Assembly (NCBI GenBank): GCA_030526715.1
Contig: JAUNCG010000005.1
Location: forward strand, 1-64,000
DNA length: 64,000 bases
From: Eubacteriales bacterium
GTDB lineage: Bacteria > Bacillota > Clostridia > Lachnospirales > Lachnospiraceae
Reading direction: 5' to 3'
Shown here: positions 31,458 through 46,453 of the stretch, one piece after another
How the letters are laid out: every line of letters starts with the position of its first letter
How positions within the stretch are numbered: position 1 is the stretch's first letter
Notes under the pieces: generated by a model
Told to the model about the DNA's origin: nothing
The model's database searches: none
The model's input: only the letters and a program-made list of their open reading frames with translations
Position numbers and translations under genes: made by a program

Positions 31458-31486
31458 TTGACCTGTCCTGTTGAAATTGGTAAAAT
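31458..31486 (+). promoter_or_regulatory. Promoter of the riboswitch-controlled transcript
   Basis: TTGACC (31458-31463), 17 bases, TAAAAT (31481-31486). The predicted start near 31493 lies just before the riboswitch aptamer. Confidence 0.6.
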
Positions 31487-31499
31487 GATGTAGAATTAA

Positions 31500-31626
31500 A
31501 TATTGAGCAAAACAGTCGAAAGATTGTTACGCAAAGCTATAGGGCCTGTAAAATGGCAGCCAGTTGCACGAAATATATGTATTTGGAGGGTTGTCTTTGC
31601 CGTGTATGTGAGGGCGCTCTTTTTTT
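31500..31626 (+). promoter_or_regulatory. Cyclic-di-GMP-I (GEMM) riboswitch with downstream expression platform
   Basis: The aptamer (31500-31576) has all the landmarks of class I: closing stem ATATT/AATAT; GCAAAAC; a 7-bp stem AACAGTC/GATTGTT capped by a GAAA tetraloop (31518-31521); ACGCAAAGC; and the receptor helix with TATAGGGCCT and ATGGCAGCCAGTTG. After it, an imperfect stem between GGAGGG (31585 region) and AGGGCGCTCT is followed by seven T (31620-31626), a plausible but weakened terminator. The first gene below is a pseudogene; the intact hybrid kinase and the GGDEF/EAL protein lie further along the same strand. Confidence 0.85.
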
Positions 31627-31672: not shown

Positions 31673-31900
31673 ATGAGGGAAAACAAAAAAATCAGATGGT
31701 TATCGGTTAGCACTGCGGTTATACTTTTGTGTGCCGGTTTGTGAGGATGCGGAAATAAGCAGGATCCGCATGATGCTGCGAATAGAAAGGTGACGCTTCC
31801 GCTGAAGGAGTTGGTGGAGCTGACGATTGCTGCGCCGGATAGAGGCGAGTATTCGCTGGAGAATGAGCTTCCGCTCTGGAAGGAAATTGAGAAGAGGTGG
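31673..31900 (+). pseudogene. N-terminal remnant of an extracellular solute-binding lipoprotein
   Basis: From the ATG at 31673 the frame gives a lipoprotein signal peptide (IRWLSVSTAVILLCAGL), then a TGA exactly where the lipobox serine would be, then GCGNKQDP. A single change (TCA to TGA) would restore LSGC. The following KELVELTIAAPDRGEYSLEN and LPLWKEIEKR match the start of LplA/YesO-type sugar-binding proteins. After EIEKR the family sequence stops and the frame runs straight into the transmembrane start of a sensor protein, so the rest of the gene was deleted. This is the first gene below the cyclic-di-GMP riboswitch. Confidence 0.75.
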
Positions 31901-33564
31901 ATGGGTATGAAGCTGTTTCATTTCCCATATACGATGCCAGAGTACAGGAGAATGTTTCGGCAAATGTATCGTCGTCTGTTTCTTGTGTTTACCGCAGTAT
32001 TTCTTGTCGCGGCGGGCATGTATTACTCGATCCATGCGCAGAACCGCAGAAACGAAGATGCGCAGATTGCGGAAAAGGTCAATAGCTATGCAAGTGCGGC
32101 GCTTATGAAGCTGAGAGATCTGACCTATAATCTCGGTGCTTCTCAGGAGATCACGGAAATGAGGAATGCCGCGACTGGGGAATTTGATCCGACCTATTAT
32201 TATGCCGCGCAGCGAGAACTGATCTCCTACAAGGTATTAAACAGGCAGGTCAACGGCCTTGCAGTGTATATCTATGATGCGATCTACGTGGCGACCGATA
32301 AAGAGGTAGTGAGCGTGGAGGATTATCAGGAGGCTCTGGCTCCGGGCGTTGCTTTTTCACAGTACGCAAATCGATCGGTGACGCACGTTTTGTTGCCGCA
32401 AAGGATAAAGAAATGCAGCTGGACTACGCGATGCCGCTGATCAATTCTGCCGGGCATAGATATGCGACGTTGTTCATAGAATTAAAGACATCGGCGATCC
32501 GCAGGGAGATAGAAGAGTTGATTCCGAAGGAGTTTGTATATCTTCTTTTTGACGAATCCCATACGCTTATTTTGGGCAATTCGCTGACAACCGGGAAGTC
32601 TTCGTGGCCAACCTATGAGGAGACTCTTGCGGATCGGTTCTATGCGTCGGACGATGAGGATGGGATCGTCTGCTTTATAAAACAGACCGATTCCGGCTAC
32701 CGGAATCAGCGCATTCGGACAGCCATATTGCTGATCGCATTGTTCGCCCTGCTTCTTGTACTGTCGGTACCGTGTTCTCACTTTTTCTGTAAGAGAAGCT
32801 ATGAAGAACGGGAGGAGGTAAGGCATGAGCTTGAAGAACAGAAGAAGATGGTGGAAAACAGCAGAATGCAAATGGAGCTGGCACAGGCGAGGGAGAACCG
32901 GATCCGGGTAAAAAAGGATTTCCACGGAGTGAACCATTGGTATGTCTCCGGAGTTTCTAAAAAAGTTTTTTTTGCCGTTTGAACGAGAGCATATGTATTC
33001 CGATGCCAAGCATTCCGGAACCGATCTCGGAATGGCGATTACCAAGGAGCTGGCAGATCTTATGAATGCCGAAATCCGCGTCACCAGCGAGGTGGGCAGG
33101 GGAAGTAGGTTTGTCATGACGGTTCCGTTTGATCTGGCCGCTTCGGTGGGAGCGACGGAGGAGACAGGAAACGAGGATGTCTCATTGGAGGCGCACCATT
33201 TTGCTGGCGGAAGACAACAGTCTGAACCGGCAGGTGGCGGAGTATGTGCTTTGTGACGCAGGGGCAGAAGTAGTCGCCGTGGTCAACGGTCTGGAAGCGA
33301 TAAAGACATTTGCAAAAGCGCCGACAGGCACCTTTGATTTTGTGATCATGGATGTACGGATGCCGGAAATGGACGCTCTGGAAGCAAACGCGGAGGATCC
33401 GGGCATTATCCTGTGTGGATGCGAGGACAGTACCGATCATTGTGGCATCTGCGAATGCATTTGCGGATGATGTCAGAGAGTGTCTGGAAGCGGGAATGAA
33501 CGATCATGTGGCGAAGCCGATCGATATTGCAAACCTGCTTTTGGTCTTGAAAAAATATCTATAG
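31901..33564 (+). pseudogene. Broken hybrid sensor histidine kinase gene
   Basis: Read in pieces across four frame changes. Part 1 (to about 32400): YRRMFRQMYRRLFLVFTAVF transmembrane helix and an extracellular sensor region. Part 2 (about 32400-32930): rest of the sensor, second helix (AILLIALFALLLVLSV) and a coiled coil, then an abrupt loss of the phosphoacceptor histidine domain and most of the ATPase. Part 3 (about 32940-33170): GMSPEFLKKFF and the GTDLGMAITK box of the ATPase end. Parts 4 and 5 (to 33564): a receiver domain (ILLAEDNSLNRQ, IMDVRMPEMD, then IIVASANAFADD and HVAKPIDIANLL) split by another shift near 33400. It cannot be functional. It is a paralogue of the intact kinase that follows. 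Confidence 0.8.
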
Positions 33565-33659: not shown

Positions 33660-35354
33660 ATGAAGGAAAAGAAAATGATCGACAGAAGTGAAAAACCGGC
33701 TTCGGAAATGCTGGGCGAATATGTGGAGCAGCTTAAGAAACAGGAGCAGGAGCTGAAAGCGGCGCTCAATTCGGCGATGGATGCCAGCAAGGCGAAGAGC
33801 AGGTTTTTATCTAATATGTCGCATGATATCCGGACACCGATGAATGCGATCGTGGGATATACGGCGATCGCATCCGCACATATTCATGAACCGGATATCG
33901 TGAAGCAGAGTCTGGGAAAAATAGCGCTGGCCAGCGAGCATTTACAGGGACTGATCAACGATATTCTGGATATGTCCCGCATTGAATCGGGAAAAGAGAC
34001 GATAAATCTGAACCGCACCTCTGTCCCGGAGATGGTAAGAGGTGTTTTACCGATGATACAGGCGCAGGTCGATCGCAAGCATTTGGAGTTGTATATCGAT
34101 ACGATAGATTTAAAGGATGAAAGAGTATATGCTGACACGCAGAAAATGCGGCAGATCCTGATCAATCTGATGAGCAATGCCGTGAAGTTCACCGGAGAGG
34201 GTGGACATATCGGAATCCGTGTGAAACAGATGAAGAGTAAAAAAGAGGGGTATGCGACCTATGTTTTCCGGGTGAAGGATGACGGAATCGGTATGAGCAG
34301 GGAGTTTCTCAAACGGATTTTTGATCCATTCGAGCAGGAGCATACGTATGAGGAATCCGGAAAGGAAGGTACCGGACTCGGTATGACGATCACAAAAAGC
34401 TTTGTGGATATTCTTGGCGGAACGATCGAAATAGAAAGTGAGCTTGGTAAGGGCAGTGAATTTATTATATCGTTGGAGCTGAAGCTTCAGGAGGACGTGC
34501 AGCCGGATGCAAGGCTGGAAGAGCTGAGAGGGTTTCGCGCGCTGGTCGTGGATGATGATTTTTCGACCTGCGACAGTATTACGAGGATGCTTTCCGATGT
34601 CGGGATGCGATCGGACTGGACGGTTTCGGCTAAGGACGCCCTGCTGAGGACTCAAAAGGCCATCAGTGATGACGATCCGTTTTTTGCCTATATCATAGAC
34701 TGGATCATGCCGGAAATGAATGGTCTGGAGTTGGTTCGCAGAATCCGGAAGTTTATAGGAAACGACATACCGATCATCATTCTGACGGCATATGCGTGGG
34801 GAGATATTGCAGAGGAAGCGAAGGAGGCAGGCGTGACAGCGCTCTGTACAAAGCCGCTGTTTGCCTCAGATCTCACAACGATTTTTCTGGATAATATCAA
34901 TATTGATGGAACAGCGCGCATGGCGAAAAGAATGATGGACAGCGTAGATCTGAGGTTTGAGGGGGAACGTGTGCTTCTGGCAGAGGACAACAGGTTGAAT
35001 CGCGAGATCGCGGAAGTGGAAATGCAGGAAATGGGGCTGGAGGTCATCTGTGCAAAGAATGGTAAAGAGGCGGTGGAGATGCTGGAAGCATCCGAAAACG
35101 GGCATTTCGATTTTGTTTTGATGGATATGAGAATGCCGGTCATGGATGGGGTCAGTGCTACGCTGAAGATCCGTCAGTCCCAACGCCGGTATCTGAAGGA
35201 AATTCCGATCATAGCGCTGACTGCGAATGCGTTTCAGGAAGACGTGAATGCCTGTCTGGAAGCAGGGATGAATGCGCATGTGGCAAAACCTTTTGATTCT
35301 GACGACCTTGCGCTGGTATTGAAAAGACAGCAGAAGAAAAAACGATGTGAGTGA
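33660..35354 (+). CDS. Soluble hybrid histidine kinase with two receiver domains
   Basis: 564 residues. A short coiled coil (15-45) leads straight into the HisKA domain with phosphoacceptor His55 (SNMSHDIRTP), then the ATPase domain (N-box INLMSNAVKFTGEG, DDGIGMSREF, GTGLGMTITK). Receiver 1 starts ALVVDDDFSTCDS, with its Asp in IIDWIMPEM. Receiver 2 starts VLLAEDNRLNRE, with its Asp in VLMDMRMPVMDG. There is no sensor or membrane domain, unusual for this class, so the input must come from a partner or was lost by truncation; the broken gene upstream has exactly the missing sensor. Start uncertain between 33660 and 33675. It is 25 bases from the GGDEF/EAL gene and probably cotranscribed. Confidence 0.88.
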   Translation: MKEKKMIDRSEKPASEMLGEYVEQLKKQEQELKAALNSAMDASKAKSRFLSNMSHDIRTPMNAIVGYTAIASAHIHEPDIVKQSLGKIALASEHLQGLINDILDMSRIESGKETINLNRTSVPEMVRGVLPMIQAQVDRKHLELYIDTIDLKDERVYADTQKMRQILINLMSNAVKFTGEGGHIGIRVKQMKSKKEGYATYVFRVKDDGIGMSREFLKRIFDPFEQEHTYEESGKEGTGLGMTITKSFVDILGGTIEIESELGKGSEFIISLELKLQEDVQPDARLEELRGFRALVVDDDFSTCDSITRMLSDVGMRSDWTVSAKDALLRTQKAISDDDPFFAYIIDWIMPEMNGLELVRRIRKFIGNDIPIIILTAYAWGDIAEEAKEAGVTALCTKPLFASDLTTIFLDNINIDGTARMAKRMMDSVDLRFEGERVLLAEDNRLNREIAEVEMQEMGLEVICAKNGKEAVEMLEASENGHFDFVLMDMRMPVMDGVSATLKIRQSQRRYLKEIPIIALTANAFQEDVNACLEAGMNAHVAKPFDSDDLALVLKRQQKKKRCE

Positions 35355-35379: not shown

Positions 35380-38300
35380 ATGACAAAGAAAGAAAAAACG
35401 GTTTTAAATCCGCTAGATGGGCTTTACATGGATGCAATCGCAGCATCTTATGAATTCAGTATGATTTATAATCTGACAAAAAATACATTTACGATCCGAA
35501 GATATCATCACGCATTTCTAAGCGGGGAGTTTCCTTTAAGTGGGAAATACGATGAGTTTATCGATTCGGTCAGTATGCAGCTTCTGAAAAATGACAGACG
35601 GTATCAGCCATCCGTACGTTGCAGGAAGGAACAGCTCAGACGCTATCGCGCAGGTGAGAGGTATCGGGAGGATCGTTATCAGATCTATGACAGAAAAGGC
35701 AAGCTTCACTGGGTTCGGGAGCGTATCGTGTATATTGAGGATCCGGTCAGCGGGGACGTCATGGGATTATCGCTCGCGGCGGTGATTGACGAGGAAATAC
35801 AGAACGAAAGAAACAACCACAGGATTCATGATGAACTCACGGGAGTTTTCAGCAGAGCGTATTTTTATGAGCAAGCAAACAGGGTTCTGCGTCAGGCAGA
35901 AGCGGAGGGGTGTGTCACAGAATACGCGCTGATTTTTAATAACATTCAGAACTTTAAATATTATAATATAAAATATGGACGCCAGTCGGGCGATACGCTT
36001 CTTCAGCATGTGGCGAATTCGATAGAAACCGTTGGCAATGATTTTTTGCTAGCGAGGTATGGAGACGATCATTTTATCTCCATTACGCGGGATCCGGATA
36101 TGATTGAATCGATCACGACCGGGAATCGTATGTTTGAACAGGAGTTCGGAGCCTTCGGGATAAAGCTTAAAACGGGTGTCTATCAGATTACGAAAGAAGG
36201 CATGACGGCAGAAACGGCCGTGGATATGGCCAAGATCGCCTGCGATTTCGCCGGAAATTCGCAGGATGCTGTCTGGCTATATGATGAAAAGTTGGAAAAG
36301 CAGCTGGAACGCAACAGCTACATTGAGAAAAATTTTGATCGTGCATTGAAAAATGGTTATATCAAACCGTACTATCAGCCAGTGATCCGAACGAATAACG
36401 GGCAGCTCTGCGGCGTTGAGGCGCTGGCAAGATGGATCGACCCGGAGTTGGGATTGTTGTCTCCGGGAGATTTTATTCCGGTATTAGAGAAAAATCAGGA
36501 GATCACAAGACTTGATCTGTATATGCTGCGTCAGATCTGTAAGGATATTATGACCGGCGTCCGGCTTGGAGGAGAGTTCCCTGCGCCGGTTTCTTTTAAT
36601 CTGTCGAAGCTGGATTTCCTGAAGGGCTCAGTTTTTGACGAGGTGGAAGAGATCGTGCTGGAAAGCGGGGTTCCGAGGGATCTGATCCGTATTGAAATTA
36701 CGGAGTCTGCTGTCGTGACTGATCCGACGTATATGAAGCAGGTGATCTCGAAGTTTCAAAATGCGGGATATCAGATCTGGATGGATGATTTTGGCAGCGG
36801 ATTGTCATCGCTGAATCTGCTGACAGAATATCGTTTTGATGAGATTAAGCTGGATATGCTGTTTTTGCGTTCCTTTGATGAACAGGCAAAGGAATTGATC
36901 CGCTCGGTGATCCAGATGGCAAAAAGGCTCGGGATCCAGACGCTTGCCGAGGGTGTGGAGACCAGAGAGCAGTATGCATATCTCAGGGAGATCGGCTGTG
37001 AAAAGGTACAGGGCTATTATTTCAGCAAGCCGCTGTCGTTTCAGGGGCTGTTTGAATACAAAGAACGTACCGGTCTGACGATCGAGCAACGCGCCATGGC
37101 GCCGTATTATGACAAAATGGGGAAAATCGACTATATTACGGATCGCTCTCTTGCCATCGTGGAGTTTGATGCAAAAAAGATCCGCATAATATATAAGAAT
37201 TCCGAGTTTGATAAAATCTGTCGGAACATCGGGAATGGGGAGGATTTTCTGACAGAGTATATTCTAAATGCGCCGGCGTCCACACTTCGACGGAAGTTTC
37301 TGGCGCATCAGAATGCCACGTATGCCAGCATAGACTTTATACATATGGATTATTCCTACAACGGAAAGTATTTTCGCATCCGTTCTAAATGTATCGCCAG
37401 ATATAGGCAGTATGCGGTAAATCAGGTTGAGATCCAGAATATTACGATGGATGAGCAAATCAGGGATGGGAAAGAGCTGGATCATATTTTCCGTATGATG
37501 TATTCCATGTATGACAGCATCCATGTGATAGGCAGGGACGGTTCTTTCTTTGAGGTGATGAAAAATAATACGACTGGGAATCATCTGTCGGAAAACAAGG
37601 AGAGCATCAGCCGCAGAAAAGTGGCTGAGCGTTATATTTTCTGGATGGAGCACGGCGAGTTTATGGAGTTTACAGATCCGGCTACACTGAAAGAGAGATT
37701 GAAACGAATAGAACGAGGCTATGAAACACGGTATTTCAGAAGCAGGACGGAGCAGGGCGGTTATGCGTGGAAGGCGCATACGATCCAGTATATTCCGGAT
37801 AACGATATGCTGCTTTATTCCACGCGGCCAGCGTTTTTTTATCAAAACGGTCTGATTGACAGGCTCGTTCCGTCTTATATGGAAGAATATAAGCAGGGAA
37901 TGAGCGGACTGCTGTGCTCAAATCTGTTTCAATCGGAAATCGTCAGTCTGTTCTGGAAGGATAAAAATCGGAGATTTACGGGGGCAAACCGGAAGTTTCT
38001 GGAGACCTTCGGCTTCCAGTCCGAGAAGGGACTGATCGGAAAGCTGGATGAAGAGATGGGATGGCTCGTGGATGGGATCCCTTTCCGGAATGATGAGATC
38101 GATCTGCTGGAAAACGGAACGGTAGTCAGACATCGGATCGGAAAATGTATTATAAAAGGGGTACTTCATACGATACTTGTTAAAAAGGAACCGATTTTCC
38201 GGGATGGAGAGATCGTCGGATTGATGGGCTGTCTGATCGATCTGAATGAACTGACGGATGCATTTGGAAGCATTGCGCTGAACGATGTCGATCCTGTGAC

Positions 38301-40221
38301 GGGGTTGCTCTCTGCACAGGGGATGACAGGCGCGATCGCAGAATATATGGAAGGCTGGAATGGCAGAAGAGAAAACTTTGCGGCCATTCAGCTTATATTC
38401 CGTGAGTACGGCAGGGTATATCGGACCTATGGAGAGGATATCACCAGACAGATGGCCGGGGAAATAGGAAAGATTTTGGTGCGGATCTGCGGAGATCAAA
38501 GTCCGATCGCGCGTCTGTATGCCGGGAGATTTACGATCCTGAAAAAATACAGTGATAAGGATGAGATCCTCCTGCTTCAGAAAGAGCTGTCGCATGCAAT
38601 GCAGGAAGTCCGTGCCCTTGCAGGATATTCGGTCACTCTCAATCCGGCGATCAGCGCGGAGTACGCAGCAAATAGTTGGAACGAAAATGCGCTGATCTAT
38701 CTGGCAACCGGGGGAAGCGGTTCAAAGGTTACGCTTTTTGATCAACCGTGGACGGAGCAGTCTACGGCGGAAGTGGGACGGGCGACAGAGAAGGCGGTGG
38801 AGATTTCTTCGGAATTTGAGCTGAAGGATCTCTGGAACACCTACGAAAAGCTGAGTGAGACGCTTTATGCCGCAGATATGGATACCTATGAGCTGCTGTA
38901 TATGAACAAGAAGGGGAGAGAGACCGTAGGAGTTACTTCTGTGGAGGATATCCGCGGAAGACGATGCTATGAGGTGATTCAGGGAAAGTCCTCACCGTGT
39001 GAATTTTGCAGTAACCGTCAGTTGATGGACGGAAAGCACGTGGAATATGATTTCTTTAATAAAAAGTACAACATGATGGTTCATGTGTGCGATCAGAGGA
39101 TCGTGCATCAAGGGCGGAATATCCGTATCGAGCATGTCATGGAGTTGAATAAGGAAGAGAACATTCCGAAATTTGACAAGGCGGATCACGTGCGGAATGT
39201 GATTAATGAGAGTATCCGGATGGCGTTGGAGGAACAGGACGCAGACCGGGGGATCGATATACTGCTGGAATATCTGGGGGAAGTATTGCGAGCAGAACGG
39301 ACATATCTGTTTGAGCTTACACCGGATGAGAAAGCATGGACCAATACGTACGAATGGTGCGCGAAAGGCGTTATGCCGGAAAAAGACTTTCTGTCCTACG
39401 TGCCGCTTGAGGATGCGGCAGTTTGGAAGCGTGAATTTGAAAAAGGAAACTATGTCAAGATCCGGGATGTGGAGAAAATCAGGGAGAGTGACCGGATGGT
39501 ATATGATTATCTTGTTCCGCAGAACATTCATTCTCTTGTGGTAGCTCCGATATTTCAGGGAGAAAAGCTGTACGGATTTGTGGGCTTTGATAATCCGCCG
39601 AAGGAAATGATCGATATTTTGAGTCAGAAAATCCGGTCGGTAGCCCATGTACTCCAATCGATCATGGAGAGACGGCTGCTGAAAGAAAAGTTGGATGAGA
39701 TCATTTATGTGGATAGTATGACGAAGCTTGGAAACCGACATGCGGTATCACGCTACTTTGAGGAGATCAATCGGGGACAGAGCATTGGAATCGCATTTTG
39801 TGACGTCTGCGGTCTGAAGTATGTGAATGATAATCTCGGACATCTCTCGGGGGATGCGCTTTTACTTACGATCAGTGATCTGCTTAGAGAGATCTTCCCG
39901 GTAGGGGAGATATTCCGTTGGGGTGGAGATGAGATGATGGTTCTCACAAGCGGTGTGGAAAAGCAAAAGTTTTATCAGTATTGCGAGACGTTGAAAAGAC
40001 GTTCACTGGAACAGAATTCACCGGTAGCGGTCGGAGGAATATGGAGAGAGAGGGTCGATATTTCCTACAATGACCTGCTCAAAGAGGCGGATAAGAAGAT
40101 GTATTTCCATAAGGCACTGTTGTACCAGCACTATGATGTTTACAGAATACTGATGAATAATTCGCAGATCGTTCCAAAATCATCGAAAAAAAGACAAATA
40201 ATTTGTGATAATTTACAATGA
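35380..40221 (+). CDS. Very large GGDEF/EAL cyclic-di-GMP signalling protein
   Basis: 1613 residues, no membrane segment. Order: PAS-like (1-140); GGDEF 1 (148-300) with a degenerate YGDDH at 227-231; EAL phosphodiesterase (320-560) with GVEALARW (Glu347), NLSKLDF, EITESAV, DDFGSGLS, EGVETREQ and GYYFSKP, all needed for hydrolysis; PAS-like modules; GGDEF 2 (about 965-1100), degenerate (YAGRFTI); a PAS module with three cysteines (RRCYEVIQ, SPCEFCSN; about 1195-1215); a GAF domain (about 1280-1430); and GGDEF 3 with RWGGDEMMVL at 1515-1519, likely an active cyclase. So it can probably both make and break cyclic-di-GMP. It follows a hybrid kinase and lies about 4 kb below a cyclic-di-GMP riboswitch. 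Confidence 0.9.
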   Translation: MTKKEKTVLNPLDGLYMDAIAASYEFSMIYNLTKNTFTIRRYHHAFLSGEFPLSGKYDEFIDSVSMQLLKNDRRYQPSVRCRKEQLRRYRAGERYREDRYQIYDRKGKLHWVRERIVYIEDPVSGDVMGLSLAAVIDEEIQNERNNHRIHDELTGVFSRAYFYEQANRVLRQAEAEGCVTEYALIFNNIQNFKYYNIKYGRQSGDTLLQHVANSIETVGNDFLLARYGDDHFISITRDPDMIESITTGNRMFEQEFGAFGIKLKTGVYQITKEGMTAETAVDMAKIACDFAGNSQDAVWLYDEKLEKQLERNSYIEKNFDRALKNGYIKPYYQPVIRTNNGQLCGVEALARWIDPELGLLSPGDFIPVLEKNQEITRLDLYMLRQICKDIMTGVRLGGEFPAPVSFNLSKLDFLKGSVFDEVEEIVLESGVPRDLIRIEITESAVVTDPTYMKQVISKFQNAGYQIWMDDFGSGLSSLNLLTEYRFDEIKLDMLFLRSFDEQAKELIRSVIQMAKRLGIQTLAEGVETREQYAYLREIGCEKVQGYYFSKPLSFQGLFEYKERTGLTIEQRAMAPYYDKMGKIDYITDRSLAIVEFDAKKIRIIYKNSEFDKICRNIGNGEDFLTEYILNAPASTLRRKFLAHQNATYASIDFIHMDYSYNGKYFRIRSKCIARYRQYAVNQVEIQNITMDEQIRDGKELDHIFRMMYSMYDSIHVIGRDGSFFEVMKNNTTGNHLSENKESISRRKVAERYIFWMEHGEFMEFTDPATLKERLKRIERGYETRYFRSRTEQGGYAWKAHTIQYIPDNDMLLYSTRPAFFYQNGLIDRLVPSYMEEYKQGMSGLLCSNLFQSEIVSLFWKDKNRRFTGANRKFLETFGFQSEKGLIGKLDEEMGWLVDGIPFRNDEIDLLENGTVVRHRIGKCIIKGVLHTILVKKEPIFRDGEIVGLMGCLIDLNELTDAFGSIALNDVDPVTGLLSAQGMTGAIAEYMEGWNGRRENFAAIQLIFREYGRVYRTYGEDITRQMAGEIGKILVRICGDQSPIARLYAGRFTILKKYSDKDEILLLQKELSHAMQEVRALAGYSVTLNPAISAEYAANSWNENALIYLATGGSGSKVTLFDQPWTEQSTAEVGRATEKAVEISSEFELKDLWNTYEKLSETLYAADMDTYELLYMNKKGRETVGVTSVEDIRGRRCYEVIQGKSSPCEFCSNRQLMDGKHVEYDFFNKKYNMMVHVCDQRIVHQGRNIRIEHVMELNKEENIPKFDKADHVRNVINESIRMALEEQDADRGIDILLEYLGEVLRAERTYLFELTPDEKAWTNTYEWCAKGVMPEKDFLSYVPLEDAAVWKREFEKGNYVKIRDVEKIRESDRMVYDYLVPQNIHSLVVAPIFQGEKLYGFVGFDNPPKEMIDILSQKIRSVAHVLQSIMERRLLKEKLDEIIYVDSMTKLGNRHAVSRYFEEINRGQSIGIAFCDVCGLKYVNDNLGHLSGDALLLTISDLLREIFPVGEIFRWGGDEMMVLTSGVEKQKFYQYCETLKRRSLEQNSPVAVGGIWRERVDISYNDLLKEADKKMYFHKALLYQHYDVYRILMNNSQIVPKSSKKRQIICDNLQ

Positions 40222-40230
40222 ATTTTGAAG

Positions 40231-40262
40231 ACAGCAGCCTGTAAAAGGGCTGCTGTTTTATT
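40231..40262 (+). terminator. Bidirectional terminator between the GGDEF/EAL and AraC genes
   Basis: ACAGCAGCC (40231-40239) pairs with GGCTGCTGT (40248-40256), 8-base loop, then TTTTATTTTA. It lies between convergent genes. Confidence 0.75.
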
Positions 40263-41184
40263 TTATGTTGATCTTCTTCTCGTGAAAGGCTCTGCGGTAT
40301 TGTCCCGGGGTGATTCCTTCGACCTTTTTAAAGACCCGCAGGAAGTATTTCTCATCCTTGAAGCCGCACATAAACGCGATGCTTTTGTTGGAAAACTTGG
40401 GCTGCTGTCTGGTAAGGAGATTCTTCGCCGCAATGATCCGATAGGAGGTAATATAATCCGAGACGGTATGTCCGGTATGCTTTTTGATCAGGGCGGTCAG
40501 ATAGGTGGGATGATAATTGAACTGCTTCGCCAGTGAGGCAACGGTCAGGGGCTCCTCATAATGTACCCGGATCCATTCGATGATTTCCTTGATGCTGCCC
40601 GGGATCTTGTCACTGAAAATATCGTCTCCGCTGAGAAATTCGGCGGTAAACTCTGAGAGAAGAAGATTCAGGGCATAATGACAGCGCCAAGTGGCATGAT
40701 AATTGTCCCGTTTGGCCATATCCAGAAGCTGATGGAACAGCAGAACCGTTCTTTTCTCATGGAAAAGACTGCTGTATTCCGGTAAAATAAAATAATCGCC
40801 GGTGGTGTGCTGTGCTTCGAGCATATCGGAATCGGGGAAGATTCCGGCAAAGTGAGAGAAGCTGTTGCTGCGCAGCAGGGTACGGCGGCTGTAGATTTTG
40901 TAATCAGGATCTGTGATATAAAAATGAACCCAGAAATAGGAGAGATAGCCGTCGCTCTTCTTATGACCGAAATGGGTCTGGTGGGGAAACAGCAGGATAG
41001 TCTGATTTTCCTGCACATCAAATTCCTGATTGTTTTGCGTAATATGCAGGGTTCCCTGATTGATCAGGATAAAGACCCATGAATCCAGATTCCGATTGGG
41101 GTGAAGAAATCCGTTTTCACTGATGAGGTTTCCGCTGCTGATGTATTTTAGAGGATATTTTTCGCCGGCGACACAATATAACAT
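40258..41184 (-). CDS. AraC family transcriptional regulator
   Basis: About 308 residues: an N-terminal AraC-type cupin that binds the inducer (about 15-160, with ISENGFLHPNRNLDSW and LLFPHQTHFG) and a C-terminal double helix-turn-helix (about 210-305: ASLAKQFNYHPTYLTALIKK, then SIAFMCGFKDEKYFLRVFKK). It is divergent from the sugar ABC transporter and GH127 genes and is their probable activator. The ATG at 41184 has AAGGTGG ahead; a GTG five codons upstream (41199) is the alternative. Confidence 0.9.
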   Translation of the reverse strand: MLYCVAGEKYPLKYISSGNLISENGFLHPNRNLDSWVFILINQGTLHITQNNQEFDVQENQTILLFPHQTHFGHKKSDGYLSYFWVHFYITDPDYKIYSRRTLLRSNSFSHFAGIFPDSDMLEAQHTTGDYFILPEYSSLFHEKRTVLLFHQLLDMAKRDNYHATWRCHYALNLLLSEFTAEFLSGDDIFSDKIPGSIKEIIEWIRVHYEEPLTVASLAKQFNYHPTYLTALIKKHTGHTVSDYITSYRIIAAKNLLTRQQPKFSNKSIAFMCGFKDEKYFLRVFKKVEGITPGQYRRAFHEKKINIK

Positions 41185-41219
41185 ATGGGATTTGTCCACC
41201 TTTCCTTGAAGATTGTGAG

Positions 41220-41283: not shown

Positions 41284-41354
41284 CAGTTTGAAAATCAAAA
41301 CAATAATGTAACGGGGAAAAGAAGAACGAGAAATGTGGAAAGGTGGAGAATGAG

Positions 41355-42647
41355 ATGAAAAGACGTATGATCGCAGGATCAATGACAGCGCTTATGGTGG
41401 TTTTGGCGTTAGGAATGGGAGTAGCTGTACAGGCAGATGACGTGGTTGAGCTGACCTTCATGGGATGGGAGGCATCACCTCTTGAGACACAGGCGGTGGA
41501 AGACGGTATTGCAGCGTTTGAGGCTCAGTATCCGAATATCAAGGTGAATTATACTCCGGGACTGGCGGGCTCTGAATATAATGCAAAGCTGCTTTCGTCA
41601 GCAGCGGCAGGATCTCTTCCGGATGTTATGTTTGTATCCTCAGAGAGCTACAGAGAGTTTGCTGCCAAGGGTGTGCTGATGGAGCTTACGGATCTGTTTG
41701 ATGATAATTATTCTCTGGATGATTTTATCGAATCTTCTCAAACGATTATGTCGATCGACGGACATGTATACGGTGTTTCCGCATGTACGGTATCTCCGAT
41801 CGTGTATTATAATAGGGATGTATTTGACGCAGCGGGAATTGATTATCCGAGTGCAGATCCGGCAAACTGCTGGACCATCGATGAATTCCGTGAGGTGGCA
41901 AAGCAGCTGACGACAGATGATATTTACGGCGTATACGGACTGGAATCCGTAGCAGATACATTGAATGCGCAGATTCTTTCCAACGGCGGAACGAGATATA
42001 CCGATGATTTTATGCACAGTACCATGAATTCACCGGAGGTAAAAGAGGTGCTGGAGACGATCAAAGCAGTTCGTACTGAGGATGGCTCTGCTCCGGATGC
42101 TTCCACTCTGGACGCAGTGGGAATGTCGGCAAAACAGATGCTGCAGACCGGAAAGGTCGCTATGCTCGTGGATGGCTCATGGTCACTGCAGGAGCTGGCA
42201 GCTAGCGGAATGAATATCGGAATGGCTCCGCTTCCTTCCTACGGTGAAGTGCTTACCACAGGTCAGGCGCATCTGCATGCGATCGCTTCTACAACAGAGC
42301 ATCCGGAGGAGGCATGGCAGTTCTTACAGTTCCTCTCCGGCATGGATTATCAGGGCGCGCTGGTAAAGACCGGTCTTTGGATGCCGAACCGTTATTCCAT
42401 GTACGAGGATGCTGCTGTGGAGCAGTGGTATGACGAGAGCGTTCACGGTGACAGCTATAGGCAGATGCTGGATTACTTCATGAATGCAAAGGTAGATCCG
42501 TCCGCGCTTCAGCTGGCAACGCAGGCGAGAGATATTCTTATCGAGGAGACGGATATGTTCTTCAAGATGGATCAGGACATTGATGTGACGGTGGAGAACC
42601 TTGATACAAGAATCGATGCTGCGATTCAGGATGCTGTAGCGCAGTAA
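41355..42647 (+). CDS. Sugar ABC transporter substrate-binding protein (family 1)
   Basis: 430 residues. N-terminal signal sequence KRRMIAGSMTALMVVLALGM ending VAVQA-DD. The mature protein is the MalE/family 1 type (VELTFMGWEASPLETQA, NIKVNYTPGLAGSEYNAKL, PDVMFVSSESYREFAAKG). No cysteine follows the signal, so this is not a lipoprotein as most Gram-positive binding proteins are; it may stay anchored through an uncleaved signal. GGTGGAG precedes the ATG at 41355. The probable ligand, judged from the arabinosidases alongside, is an arabino-oligosaccharide. Confidence 0.9.
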   Translation: MKRRMIAGSMTALMVVLALGMGVAVQADDVVELTFMGWEASPLETQAVEDGIAAFEAQYPNIKVNYTPGLAGSEYNAKLLSSAAAGSLPDVMFVSSESYREFAAKGVLMELTDLFDDNYSLDDFIESSQTIMSIDGHVYGVSACTVSPIVYYNRDVFDAAGIDYPSADPANCWTIDEFREVAKQLTTDDIYGVYGLESVADTLNAQILSNGGTRYTDDFMHSTMNSPEVKEVLETIKAVRTEDGSAPDASTLDAVGMSAKQMLQTGKVAMLVDGSWSLQELAASGMNIGMAPLPSYGEVLTTGQAHLHAIASTTEHPEEAWQFLQFLSGMDYQGALVKTGLWMPNRYSMYEDAAVEQWYDESVHGDSYRQMLDYFMNAKVDPSALQLATQARDILIEETDMFFKMDQDIDVTVENLDTRIDAAIQDAVAQ

Positions 42648-42669
42648 ACGATGAGAAAGACTACGGAAG

Positions 42670-42702
42670 GCACCCGACACTGTGATGGTGTTGGGTGCTT
42701 TT
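42670..42702 (+). terminator. Intercistronic hairpin between the binding protein and permease genes
   Basis: GCACCCGACAC (42670-42680) pairs with GTGTTGGGTGC (42688-42698), one wobble, followed by TTTT. Partial termination here would give more binding protein than permease, as in many sugar ABC operons. Confidence 0.75.
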
Positions 42703-42726
42703 CCACATAAGCAGGAGGAGGATTGG

Positions 42727-43617
42727 ATGAAAACGAAGAAAAAAGGCAGGCTTCGGGATGACAGCAGATGGGCATGGGCGATGCTGCTGCCGAATATCGT
42801 CGGTTTTATCATGTTTATGGTGGTGCCGGTAGTGGCCACCTTTGTACTGAGCTTTACAAAATATGACATGCTGACGCCGCCGAAGTTTGTCGGAGTGCAG
42901 AATTATATCGATATGGCGACGGATCCCATCGTATGGCAGGTGACGGGGAATACGCTGCTGTACACACTTCTGACCGTGCCGGTAGGCATGTGTATCTCGC
43001 TGCTTCTGGCAGTCATGCTGGATCAAAAGATCGCATTCCGACGGTTTTATAGAGCAGCGTTTTTCCTTCCTGCGATCACCTCCATGGTAGTAGTCGCTAT
43101 CGTATGGCAGTGGATCTATAATCCAGATTACGGTATTTTAAATTATTTTCTGTCCATATTCGGGATCAAGGGGCCGAAGTGGCTGCTGGATACCAGAACA
43201 TCTCTGGTATCGCTGGCAATCGTGGGGATCTGGAAGAGCGCGGGGTACAATATGCTGATTTTCCTGTCGGGACTTCAGGGAATCTCTACGACGTATTACG
43301 AGGCGGCGGAGCTGGACGGCGCCGGCAAGTGGGCGCAGTTTCGGTATATTACGGTGCCGATGCTCAAGCCGACGACGTTTTTCATCTTCGTTATGTCGAT
43401 GATAGGTTCCTTCCAAGTGTTCGATCAGGTGATGCTGATGACGAAGGGAGGACCGGGACGTTCTTCCTCCGTACTGGTGCATTATCTCTATCAGAATGCA
43501 TTCCAGTACTTTAAGCTGGGCTATGCCTGCGCCATTGCGTATCTGCTGTTCTTTATCATTATGGCGATTACGTTATTTAACATGCGCATGGAAAAGAACA
43601 TGCGTGAGATCTATTAG
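42727..43617 (+). CDS. Sugar ABC transporter permease (MalF/UgpA type)
   Basis: 296 residues with six membrane helices. N-terminal basic stretch, then AWAMLLPNIVGFIMFMVVPVV; the EAA loop contacting the ATPase is YYEAAELDGAGKWAQFRYI. GGAGGAGG precedes the ATG. It is the first of a permease pair. The operon encodes no ATPase, which implies use of a shared MsmK-type ATPase encoded elsewhere. Confidence 0.93.
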   Translation: MKTKKKGRLRDDSRWAWAMLLPNIVGFIMFMVVPVVATFVLSFTKYDMLTPPKFVGVQNYIDMATDPIVWQVTGNTLLYTLLTVPVGMCISLLLAVMLDQKIAFRRFYRAAFFLPAITSMVVVAIVWQWIYNPDYGILNYFLSIFGIKGPKWLLDTRTSLVSLAIVGIWKSAGYNMLIFLSGLQGISTTYYEAAELDGAGKWAQFRYITVPMLKPTTFFIFVMSMIGSFQVFDQVMLMTKGGPGRSSSVLVHYLYQNAFQYFKLGYACAIAYLLFFIIMAITLFNMRMEKNMREIY

Positions 43618-43634
43618 GAAAGGAGGAAACCGTG

Positions 43635-44468
43635 ATGAGTATGAAGACGAAAAAGCTGCTGATAAAGATCGTCGCGCACGTGGTGCTGCTGATCGGAGCG
43701 TTTACGATGCTGGTTCCGTTTATCTGGATGCTGTCCTCCTCCTTTAAGAGTCTCGGAGAAGTGTTTGTGTTTCCGCCGACACTGTTCGGAGAGAAAATTA
43801 TCTGGGAAAATTACACTAAAATTTCGAGTCGTTTCGATTATTTTGCCTATTTTCTGAACAGTGTAAAGGTATCTGCTTGGGTAGTGGTATTTCAGGTATT
43901 TACCTCGGCGACGGCGGGCTTTGTGTTTGCGAAGCTTAATTTTAAGGGAAGGGACAAGGTGTTTCTGCTCTATCTGGCAACGATGATGATTCCCTTCCAT
44001 GTGACGGTCATTACGAATTATCTGCAGATGTCGAAATATGGTCTGGTGAATACGCTGTGGTCGCTGATGCTTCCGGCGTCTGTATCGGCCTTCGGTACCT
44101 TCCTGATGAGGCAGTTTTTTATTACGCTTCCGAATGAGCTGGTAGATGCGGCCAAGATCGACGGATGCAATCCGTTTACCATATTTATCCGGATCGCATT
44201 GCCCATGGCAAAATCTACGATCGCAACGCTTTCTATTTTCTGCTTTATGGGTGTGTGGAACGACTATTTTACGCCGCTGATCTATATCAATGATTCCAGA
44301 AAGTACACGCTGCCTCTGGGGCTGGCGAGTATGAAAGGTATGTATTCGACAGACTGGCCGGTGCTGATGAGCGCTTCTGTGATTGCGGTCCTTCCGGTAC
44401 TGATCGCATTTCTGCTTGCACAGGATGCGTTTGTCAAGGGCGTCATGATGTCCGGTCTGAAGGAATGA
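43635..44468 (+). CDS. Sugar ABC transporter permease (MalG/UgpE type)
   Basis: 277 residues, six membrane helices, partner of the preceding permease. Start MSMKTKKLLIKIVAHVVLL; the EAA loop is ELVDAAKIDGCNPFTIFIRI; ends GVMMSGLKE as is typical. AGGAGG precedes GTG-ATG; the ATG at 43635 is taken. Confidence 0.93.
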   Translation: MSMKTKKLLIKIVAHVVLLIGAFTMLVPFIWMLSSSFKSLGEVFVFPPTLFGEKIIWENYTKISSRFDYFAYFLNSVKVSAWVVVFQVFTSATAGFVFAKLNFKGRDKVFLLYLATMMIPFHVTVITNYLQMSKYGLVNTLWSLMLPASVSAFGTFLMRQFFITLPNELVDAAKIDGCNPFTIFIRIALPMAKSTIATLSIFCFMGVWNDYFTPLIYINDSRKYTLPLGLASMKGMYSTDWPVLMSASVIAVLPVLIAFLLAQDAFVKGVMMSGLKE

Positions 44469-44506
44469 GGAAGATGCAATTTGTGAAATGAAAAAGGAGA
44501 TAAAAG

Positions 44507-46453
44507 ATGTTAAATAAGAAACTGAAGCCCGTAGATCTGAATAACATCCGGATAGAGGACAGGTTCTGGAAACAGTATATGGAGTTGGTGAGACAGCATG
44601 TGATCCCTTACCAGTGGGATGCCCTGAACGATCAGATTCCGGATGCAGAGCCCAGCTACTGTATTCAGAACTTCCGTGTTGCAGCGAAGCGGGAGGAAGG
44701 GAAATTTCAGGGAATGGTATTTCAGGACAGTGATGTATATAAATGGCTGGAGGCGGTTGCGTATTCCCTGATGTGGCATCCGGACGAGGAGCTGGAACGA
44801 ACGGCGGATGAGACGATTGAACTGATCGCCGCAGCACAGCAGCCGGACGGATATCTGGATACTTACTATATCATCAACGGTCTGGAGAAGCGATTTACGA
44901 ATCTGATGGATCATCACGAGCTGTACTGTCTGGGGCATATGACAGAGGCGGCGGTAGCTTACTATCATGCGACGGGAAAGGATACCTTTTTGAAGGTGGC
45001 TATCGGATATGCCAACTGTGCATATGCGTGTCTCGGAACCGAGAGCGGGAAGATTCCGGGATATCCGGGACATGAGGTGGCGGAGATGGCGCTGGTGGCA
45101 TTGTACGGGATTACGAAGGATGAGAGACACCTGAAGCTGGCAAAGTATTTTATCGATCAGAGAGGACAGTCCCCGCTGTTTTTTGATGAGGAGTGCAAGA
45201 AAAACCATAATAGCTGCTACTGGGATGACAGCTATATGAAGAAGCAGTATTATCAGGCAGGCAAGCCGGTGAGAGAGCAGGATAAGGCAGAAGGTCACGC
45301 TGTCCGTGCGGTATATCTGTATTCCGGTATGGCCGAGGTGGCGAGCGCGACGGAGGATCGCCGGCTCTTTGAGACCTGCGAGAAGCTCTGGAACAATATC
45401 GTGAATCGTCAGATGTATGTGACAGGAGCCATCGGTGCGACGCAGCATGGGGAAGCCTTTACCTTTGACTATGATCTCCCGAACGATACCGTCTATGCGG
45501 AGACCTGCGCGGCTATCGGATTGATCTTCTTTGCGCGGCGCATGTTTGAGATCACAAAGGACAGCCGCTATACGGATGTGATGGAGCGGGCGCTGTTTAA
45601 CGGTGTTATCTGCGGTATGTCTCTGGATGGAAAGAGCTTCTTCTATGTCAATCCGCTGGAGGTGAGTCCGGAGCACTGCGAGAAGGATTATTTTCGCAGA
45701 CATGTAAAACCGGTTCGTCAGAAATGGTTCGGCTGCGCATGCTGTCCGCCGAATGTGGCGCGTCTCCTGTCCTCTATCGGAGGCTATGCTTTTGAATGTA
45801 ACGAATCCGCCGTGTATATGAATCTGTTTATGGGTGGCGATATGGAGCTTACTCTGAATGGAAAAAACAATGTATTTCACATTGAGACGGAGTATCCATG
45901 GGATGGAAAAGTGCGTATAGCCGTGGAAAATCAGGAGCCGTCTTCTTTTGCCTACGCAGTGCGTATTCCCGGCTGGTGCAGGGCATATAAGCTAACGATC
46001 AACGGGGAAGATGCCGTATACGAAATGGAAAAGGGATATGCGGTCTTGAACAGAGAGTGGAAGAACGGGGATCAGATTCTTCTTGAAATGGAGATGGAGA
46101 TCTCTATGGTGGAGGCGAATCCGCTGGTGAGAGAGGATATCGGCAAGGTGGCAGTGATGCGCGGACCGCTGGTCTATTGTCTGGAAGAGAAGGATAACGG
46201 CGATCAGCTGCAGCAGATCTATCTTGAGGACGGACAGGAATTTACGGAAAAATGCGAGAAGGATCTGCTTAATGGAGTAGTGACGCTGACGACGATGGGA
46301 AAACGCCTATCCAGTGCAGAGTGGGCTGCGGATAGTCTGTATCAGACCTATCATGGCAGAAATTTTGTAGATCAGGAGCTGAAGCTGATACCGTATTATG
46401 CATGGGCAAACCGGGGCATAGGTGAGATGACAGTCTGGATCCATGTGAAATAA
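44507..46453 (+). CDS. GH127 beta-L-arabinofuranosidase
   Basis: 648 residues, cytoplasmic (no signal peptide). GH127 enzymes remove beta-L-arabinofuranose, for example from hydroxyproline-linked arabinans of plant cell-wall proteins. The zinc-bound active site with a cysteine nucleophile is visible: Glu332 and Cys334 (VYAETCAAI) and the CxCC group at 410-413 (FGCACCPPN). The spacing agrees with that of the Bifidobacterium longum enzyme HypBA1 (Glu338, Cys340, Cys417, Cys418). It lies directly after the two permeases, so imported arabinosides are probably split inside the cell. Together with GH51 it covers both anomers. Confidence 0.9.
   Translation: MLNKKLKPVDLNNIRIEDRFWKQYMELVRQHVIPYQWDALNDQIPDAEPSYCIQNFRVAAKREEGKFQGMVFQDSDVYKWLEAVAYSLMWHPDEELERTADETIELIAAAQQPDGYLDTYYIINGLEKRFTNLMDHHELYCLGHMTEAAVAYYHATGKDTFLKVAIGYANCAYACLGTESGKIPGYPGHEVAEMALVALYGITKDERHLKLAKYFIDQRGQSPLFFDEECKKNHNSCYWDDSYMKKQYYQAGKPVREQDKAEGHAVRAVYLYSGMAEVASATEDRRLFETCEKLWNNIVNRQMYVTGAIGATQHGEAFTFDYDLPNDTVYAETCAAIGLIFFARRMFEITKDSRYTDVMERALFNGVICGMSLDGKSFFYVNPLEVSPEHCEKDYFRRHVKPVRQKWFGCACCPPNVARLLSSIGGYAFECNESAVYMNLFMGGDMELTLNGKNNVFHIETEYPWDGKVRIAVENQEPSSFAYAVRIPGWCRAYKLTINGEDAVYEMEKGYAVLNREWKNGDQILLEMEMEISMVEANPLVREDIGKVAVMRGPLVYCLEEKDNGDQLQQIYLEDGQEFTEKCEKDLLNGVVTLTTMGKRLSSAEWAADSLYQTYHGRNFVDQELKLIPYYAWANRGIGEMTVWIHVK

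Follow-up and report, generated by a model that had tools for sequence, protein, structure and literature searches.

We analyzed a 64,000-nucleotide stretch of DNA, referred to here as the window, around a forward-strand gene for a predicted c-di-GMP enzyme of 1613 residues (Table 1). Using models built in this analysis, and Pfam for the N-terminal PAS, the domain order of the protein was determined to be PAS-GGDEF1(degenerate)-EAL-PASa-PASb-PASc-GGDEF2(degenerate)-PASd-GAF-GGDEF3. In Pfam, the EAL domain matched over residues 318-551 (E = 1.2e-64; 218.3 bits versus a cut-off of 31.3), and three GGDEF stretches, PAS_9 (1169-1247) and GAF (1292-1407) were also found. The matches to PAS_3 (Table 1) and PAS_8 were weak. 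A genome-wide domain search located the EAL at 36331-37032 and GGDEFs at 35824-36246, 38284-38616 and 39706-40113. The domains assigned with the least certainty are PASa and PASb, where the window protein had no Pfam match and PDB matches to PAS proteins were weak (best E = 0.072). PASc was strongly conserved across the family.

The initial annotation had described a soluble protein. Indeed, the highest 19-residue Kyte-Doolittle mean was 1.25, below the value of 1.6 usually taken as the threshold for a membrane helix, so no such helix is expected. AlphaFold models were of too low confidence to be usable: the mean pLDDT was 42.1 for residues 1-850, where the input held two aligned sequences, and 32.6 for residues 831-1613, predicted from a single sequence.

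Table 1. Features of the enzyme gene and its surroundings, in window coordinates.
Feature	Position	Strand	Residues	Basis or details
Promoter-like site TTGACC-17-TAAAAT, extended -10	31458..31486	+		Consensus match only; just upstream of riboswitch
c-di-GMP-I riboswitch aptamer RF01051	31496..31571	+		53 bits (gathering 35), model positions 1-87, full length
Terminator-like hairpin and T run after aptamer; possible expression platform	31592..31616	+		Consensus match only
Decayed genes: lipoprotein-like start with stop codon; hybrid-kinase remnants in three frames	31673..33564	+		Between riboswitch and intact kinase
Soluble hybrid histidine kinase, HisKA-HATPase-REC-REC, intact	33660..35354	+		25 bp upstream of enzyme gene
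c-di-GMP enzyme gene	35380..40221	+	1-1613	ATG start, 1613 open codons
N-terminal PAS-like input domain	35380..35799	+	1-140	Pfam PAS_3 84-121
GGDEF1, motif GDDHF	35800..36279	+	141-300	Pfam, alignment of family
EAL phosphodiesterase domain	36316..37047	+	313-556	Pfam, catalytic residues
PASa and PASb, PAS-like	37060..37869	+	561-830	PAS_3 in 2/24 members
PASc	37897..38265	+	840-962	PAS_4 in 16/25 members
GGDEF2, motif YAGRF	38266..38724	+	963-1115	Profile, and Pfam on relatives
PASd	38812..39165	+	1145-1262	PAS_9
GAF domain	39175..39654	+	1266-1425	Pfam
GGDEF3, motif GGDEM	39655..40134	+	1426-1585	Pfam, motif residues
Terminator-like hairpin, 13 pairs, directly after enzyme stop codon	40228..40259	+		Hairpin scan

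Roles were assigned to residues of the EAL and GGDEF domains using the PleD and RocR numbering. The EAL domain retains E347/A348/L349, N407, E439, D469, D470, K490, E524, E527 and Q544, matching the catalytic set (E, N, E, D, D, K, E, E, Q) of RocR and TBD1265. This set was complete in all 40 rows examined (39 family rows, including fragments, and one shorter paralogue from the same genome), the middle residue of the EAL triplet being A, S or G. GGDEF3 reads RWGGDEM, with Met rather than Phe as the fifth motif residue, and possesses the metal-binding Asp (D1475) as well as the guanine-binding Asn and Asp (N1483 and D1492). The catalytic and binding residues were complete in 24 of 24 GGDEF3-type rows examined, one of which reads VGDEF. 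Thus, the one active-looking EAL and one active-looking GGDEF that had been annotated were both confirmed at the level of domain matches and catalytic residues. The EAL domain is predicted to hydrolyze c-di-GMP, and GGDEF3 to synthesize it.

GGDEF3 lacks the Arg that comes after the C-terminal Lys in PleD; this and the Met at the fifth motif position speak against the predicted synthesis. An RxxD sequence before the GGDEF motif is a site of product inhibition that is common but not required. The site, five residues before the motif, is absent from GGDEF1 and GGDEF3, the latter having FPVG there. The excerpted text of PMC9061725 names RxxD as the inhibitory site of GGDEF domains. As described in excerpts of PMC9140294, Hypr GGDEFs, which synthesize cGAMP, have Ser or Thr at the position of PleD D344, the residue that governs the choice of GTP. 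GGDEF3 has D1492 at this position, excluding a Hypr identity.

Such a large protein, with its many degenerate and PAS domains, might instead act as a c-di-GMP receptor or scaffold devoid of net activity, in the manner of LapD. We consider this very improbable given the full catalytic set of the EAL domain, the complete GGDEF3, and a score of 122 bits with the LapD model versus its curated cut-off of 1020.

The other two GGDEF domains are degenerate, as initially annotated, and their residues have had different fates. In GGDEF1, which reads RYGDDHF, the catalytic Glu is replaced by His231 and the first metal-binding Asp by Asn188, while Asn196 and Asp205 are kept. Across 31 family members, the guanine-binding Asn196 and Asp230, the third motif residue and part of the metal site, were invariant (31/31 each). 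Position 205, a guanine contact, was Asp in 24 members, including the window protein, and Asn in seven; position 188 was Asn in 19, again including the window protein, and Asp in the remaining 12. At position 231, the catalytic one, the members have His (26), Arg (4) or Gln (1), and never Glu. By comparison, position 231 was Glu in four and His in six of 25 other GGDEF-EAL rows of relatives, some of which have no real GGDEF. We take the GGDEF1 pattern to reflect selection that preserves nucleotide binding but not synthesis, rather than random decay. Specifically, nucleotide sensing by GGDEF1 is plausible because the guanine-contacting Asn and Asp and the motif Asp are retained in the family.

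In GGDEF2, which reads RLYAGRF, all key catalytic and binding residues are gone. The domain scored 22.3 bits in the window protein alone, under the cut-off of 23.8; in the same region, 25 of 25 aligned members matched Pfam GGDEF, and a profile of the region matched cyclase structures in the PDB (best E = 5.5e-21). Of 37 members, 36 have a degenerate motif, and its residues vary freely among relatives. We read GGDEF2 as a domain that has lost its function and kept its fold. One member of the family, L063:4315-7407 in genome G183, still has a GGDEF2 reading GGDEF, which hints that GGDEF2 was formerly active. The initial annotation had proposed that both degenerate domains could be ligand-binding regulators. 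This is supported as plausible for GGDEF1, whose Asn and Asp contacts are kept in the family, and not for GGDEF2, which has lost them: because none of these residues is kept and relatives vary freely, a scaffold role fits GGDEF2 better.

GGDEF1 could itself be purely structural or serve in dimerization, its DHF pattern being maintained for contact with the EAL domain and not for GTP. Asn at the first metal position, present in 19 of 31 members, could weaken Mg-GTP binding, and the second binding Asp is replaced by Asn in seven; both are consistent with such a role. The invariance of the guanine Asn and the motif Asp is not, and GGDEF2, under the same structural need, lost both residues freely. 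Overall, we consider a purely structural GGDEF1 possible but doubtful.

GTP binding by GGDEF1, the reading that we prefer, would have precedents. Caulobacter CC3396, Pseudomonas FimX, RbdA and RmcA, and Shewanella PdeB all have, like the enzyme, a non-synthesizing GGDEF directly before the EAL. Excerpts of PMC9061725 report that the inactive GGDEF of CC3396, RbdA, RmcA and PdeB binds GTP and raises EAL activity, and those of PMC8846402 that the phosphodiesterase activity of FimX, whose motif is GDSIF, is raised by GTP. The enzyme resembles these GTP-activated proteins in that a degenerate GGDEF directly precedes an intact EAL and in that nucleotide contacts are kept without catalysis, with Asn at position 188. 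It differs from FimX in having GDDHF in place of GDSIF, and the DHF form of GGDEF1 is a signature of its family. Unlike the GTP-activated phosphodiesterases, the enzyme continues in the same chain to a third, intact GGDEF that has a PAS and a GAF domain of its own, with the dead GGDEF2 in between. The best solved relative of GGDEF1-EAL is a Pseudomonas 'Motility regulator' (PDB 4rnh/4rnf; E = 1.3e-53, residues 146-554), which we take to be MorA and which matches the enzyme in this part only. In RmcA of P. aeruginosa, several PAS domains feed a GGDEF and an EAL in one protein (PMC8846402, excerpts), as in the enzyme; however, RmcA has a single GGDEF and a different domain order.

The genome containing the window (2.4 Mb, 133 contigs) yielded 19 GGDEF and six EAL matches. 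Contig C96 encodes a full-length, 1613-residue copy, 60% identical to the window enzyme, and a further copy of 1284 residues, with a receiver domain at its start and without GGDEF3. A third full-length protein, of 1628 residues and 43% identity, is encoded on contig C115. In a 42-row tree built from the EAL-to-GGDEF2 part, the own-genome copies formed one clade (SH-aLRT 100 for the three, 99 including the receiver copy). Domain by domain, the window enzyme and its C96 copy were 57-74% identical throughout, except for the N-terminal domain at 27%. The region of C96 from 25.4 to 47 kb (L021 and L022) is a cluster of large c-di-GMP enzymes of 1613, 1000 and 1284 residues, which also encodes a solute-binding-type protein and three hybrid kinases; a tandem-PAS kinase in this cluster shares PAS domains with the enzymes.

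A profile of the EAL-GGDEF2 linker (residues 560-1150, five rows) was used to search 397 genomes of the family. It matched in 196 at E ≤ 1e-3, many of the matches being short and partial, with three candidates scored per genome. From the list, 37 stretches at the strongest matches and at related places were retrieved, one of them of 10 bases, along with two own-genome riboswitch stretches. According to the models built in this analysis, an EAL and three GGDEFs share one open frame in the three own-genome genes and in 12 further genes (L038, L039, L040, L041, L042, L043, L045, L048, L050, L051, L052 and L057) from 11 other genomes. As long frames were picked first, these 11 genomes among 397 are a minimum and should not be read as a frequency. 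When six of these genes were checked using Pfam, five had one EAL and three GGDEFs, and L050 had two GGDEFs; in L038, the intact GGDEF stands first. In a class-wide sample, nine of 391 genomes matched at E ≤ 1e-20: six in the family of the window, its own genome included, and three in two other families. A search of the contigs of named genomes returned one locus, in the uncultured Lachnospiraceae MAG RUG11200. Because relatives repeat the same domain order, the arrangement is not a product of chance. The enzyme is not a one-off, since its family is found repeatedly in related bacteria. The annotated rarity of the arrangement is correspondingly weakened, with three full copies in one genome and occurrences in at least 11 others of the family. 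No c-di-GMP paper on three GGDEF domains, and none naming a GGDEF-EAL-GGDEF, multiple-GGDEF or triple-GGDEF architecture, was found among the open-licence papers searched. Candidate orthologues in the same genus were rejected: three of seven congeners had any match, the best of which (161 bits over residues 292-559) reflects EAL-level similarity only. Small Pfam matches in single relatives, such as those to Tim17 or DUF1473, were dismissed as chance.

The two halves of the enzyme also occur apart. An 837-residue gene product in genome G016 ends after PASb, and many other core genes have no GGDEF3. Conversely, L003 and L004 encode PASd-GAF-GGDEF3 alone (450 and 465 residues), and in L036 and L056 a GGDEF gene lies directly 3' of the core gene. 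On the 42-row core tree, the C-terminal state (GGDEF3, GAF only, or none) changed seven times. In a 17-row tree of GAF-GGDEF3, the tails of the window clade fell on the same side as the standalone L003 and L004 and as L027, a GAF-GGDEF gene of the same genome, while the tails of L042, L043, L045, L048, L051 and L053 fell on the other side (100/99). Based on these state changes and the split in the second tree, the core acquired, lost or swapped its cyclase tail on more than one occasion.

A core that is conserved while its tail comes and goes raises the alternative that the enzyme is essentially a phosphodiesterase in the cell, with GGDEF3 intact but mostly idle or serving mainly in dimerization. 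RmcA, which also combines a GGDEF and an EAL, is mainly a phosphodiesterase in vivo according to excerpts of PMC8846402. The complete residue set in every GGDEF3 row would be unexpected of an idle domain, and both other full own-genome copies retain GGDEF3, at 61% and 39% identity to that of the window. On balance, we regard an essentially phosphodiesterase role as unlikely.

The input domains have a separate history. The N-terminal PAS of the window enzyme is 40% identical over 135 residues to a PAS of a 1094-residue hybrid kinase on C96. Another PAS of this kinase matches the N-terminus of the C96 copy, at 38% identity over 134 residues. Using blastp at an E-value of 0.01, the two N-termini did not match each other, and that of the window enzyme gave no alignment with the N-termini of its own paralogues. 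Because these N-termini match kinase PAS domains and not one another, input domains appear to have been swapped between kinases and c-di-GMP enzymes.

Of the three c-di-GMP-I riboswitches in the genome, one is the aptamer 3.8 kb upstream of the enzyme gene; the others are at C79:11929-12012 and C102:10954-11028. This distance and the decayed genes within it speak against control of the enzyme by the riboswitch. In a plain energy test, the aptamer region folded no better than shuffled sequence (z = -0.19), so the evidence for the riboswitch is the covariance model. The neighboring promoter-like and terminator-like sites should be viewed against chance expectations of 21.9 and 8.4 such sites, respectively, in the region. 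The kinase remnants among the decayed genes are most similar to an 804-residue hybrid kinase on C102. The enzyme starts 25 bp after the intact hybrid kinase, and the two are probably co-transcribed. Between the aptamer hairpin and the enzyme, the sole terminator-like match on the + strand is weak (34534-34552), and a shared transcript from riboswitch to enzyme is likely. Through the riboswitch, c-di-GMP would probably feed back on expression of the enzyme.

As with c-di-GMP-I riboswitches of Clostridia, the RF01051 aptamer scored above gathering at the head of its unit; unlike them, it precedes decayed genes, the c-di-GMP enzyme following further on. No c-di-GMP riboswitch was detected near core genes in 27 scanned stretches of other genomes (0/27; flanks of about 3-5 kb; L062-L066, L069 and L071-L073 left out of the scan), and the riboswitch was rejected as a family trait on this basis. 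None was present in the stretches fetched around the C96 and C115 paralogues. Feedback on expression would thus be a local trait and not one of the family.

The explanation that best accounts for the observed domains, motifs, conservation and riboswitch score is that the protein is a soluble bifunctional c-di-GMP enzyme in which a GTP-tuned EAL phosphodiesterase core is fused to a PAS-GAF cyclase. We consider this fairly probable, judging from sequence. The N-terminal module, PAS-GGDEF1-EAL-PASa-PASb-PASc-GGDEF2, would be the phosphodiesterase. In it, GGDEF1 would make no c-di-GMP and would probably bind GTP and tune the EAL domain, as in FimX, CC3396, RbdA and PdeB, and GGDEF2 would be a structural spacer. 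The C-terminal module, PASd-GAF-GGDEF3, would be a diguanylate cyclase under PAS and GAF control, without classic product inhibition. The PAS and GAF inputs would select the dominant activity, and the product would probably feed back on expression through the riboswitch heading the likely transcription unit.

These elements could combine into a set-point device. GTP on GGDEF1 would open the EAL, GGDEF3 would synthesize c-di-GMP without product inhibition, and the riboswitch would adjust the amount of enzyme; a single operon would then keep c-di-GMP at a level determined by GTP and by the ligands or redox signals that the five PAS domains and the GAF receive. Lachnospiraceae would have built the type more than once, joining different cyclase tails to the core and swapping input PAS domains with neighboring hybrid kinases. 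That all of these parts hold jointly is improbable. If the bifunctional reading is right, a recurrent and apparently unstudied Lachnospiraceae family couples c-di-GMP breakdown and synthesis in one soluble chain, and in it a dead GGDEF is maintained by selection, probably as a GTP sensor. The DHF pattern of GGDEF1 offers a testable marker for regulatory GGDEFs. The interest of the enzyme lies in this conserved GGDEF1 pattern, the repeated fusion and the riboswitch.

Downstream of the enzyme gene, the + strand at 41343-46453 encodes the binding protein and the two permeases of a sugar-type ABC transporter and then a GH127 beta-L-arabinofuranosidase; an AraC regulator at 40258-41199 is divergent from them. 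Finally, a riboswitch at the end of C102 leads a gene (L068:7132-7863) that is truncated where the contig stops; its Glu/Ala-rich product is apparently secreted and is a candidate surface protein under c-di-GMP control.
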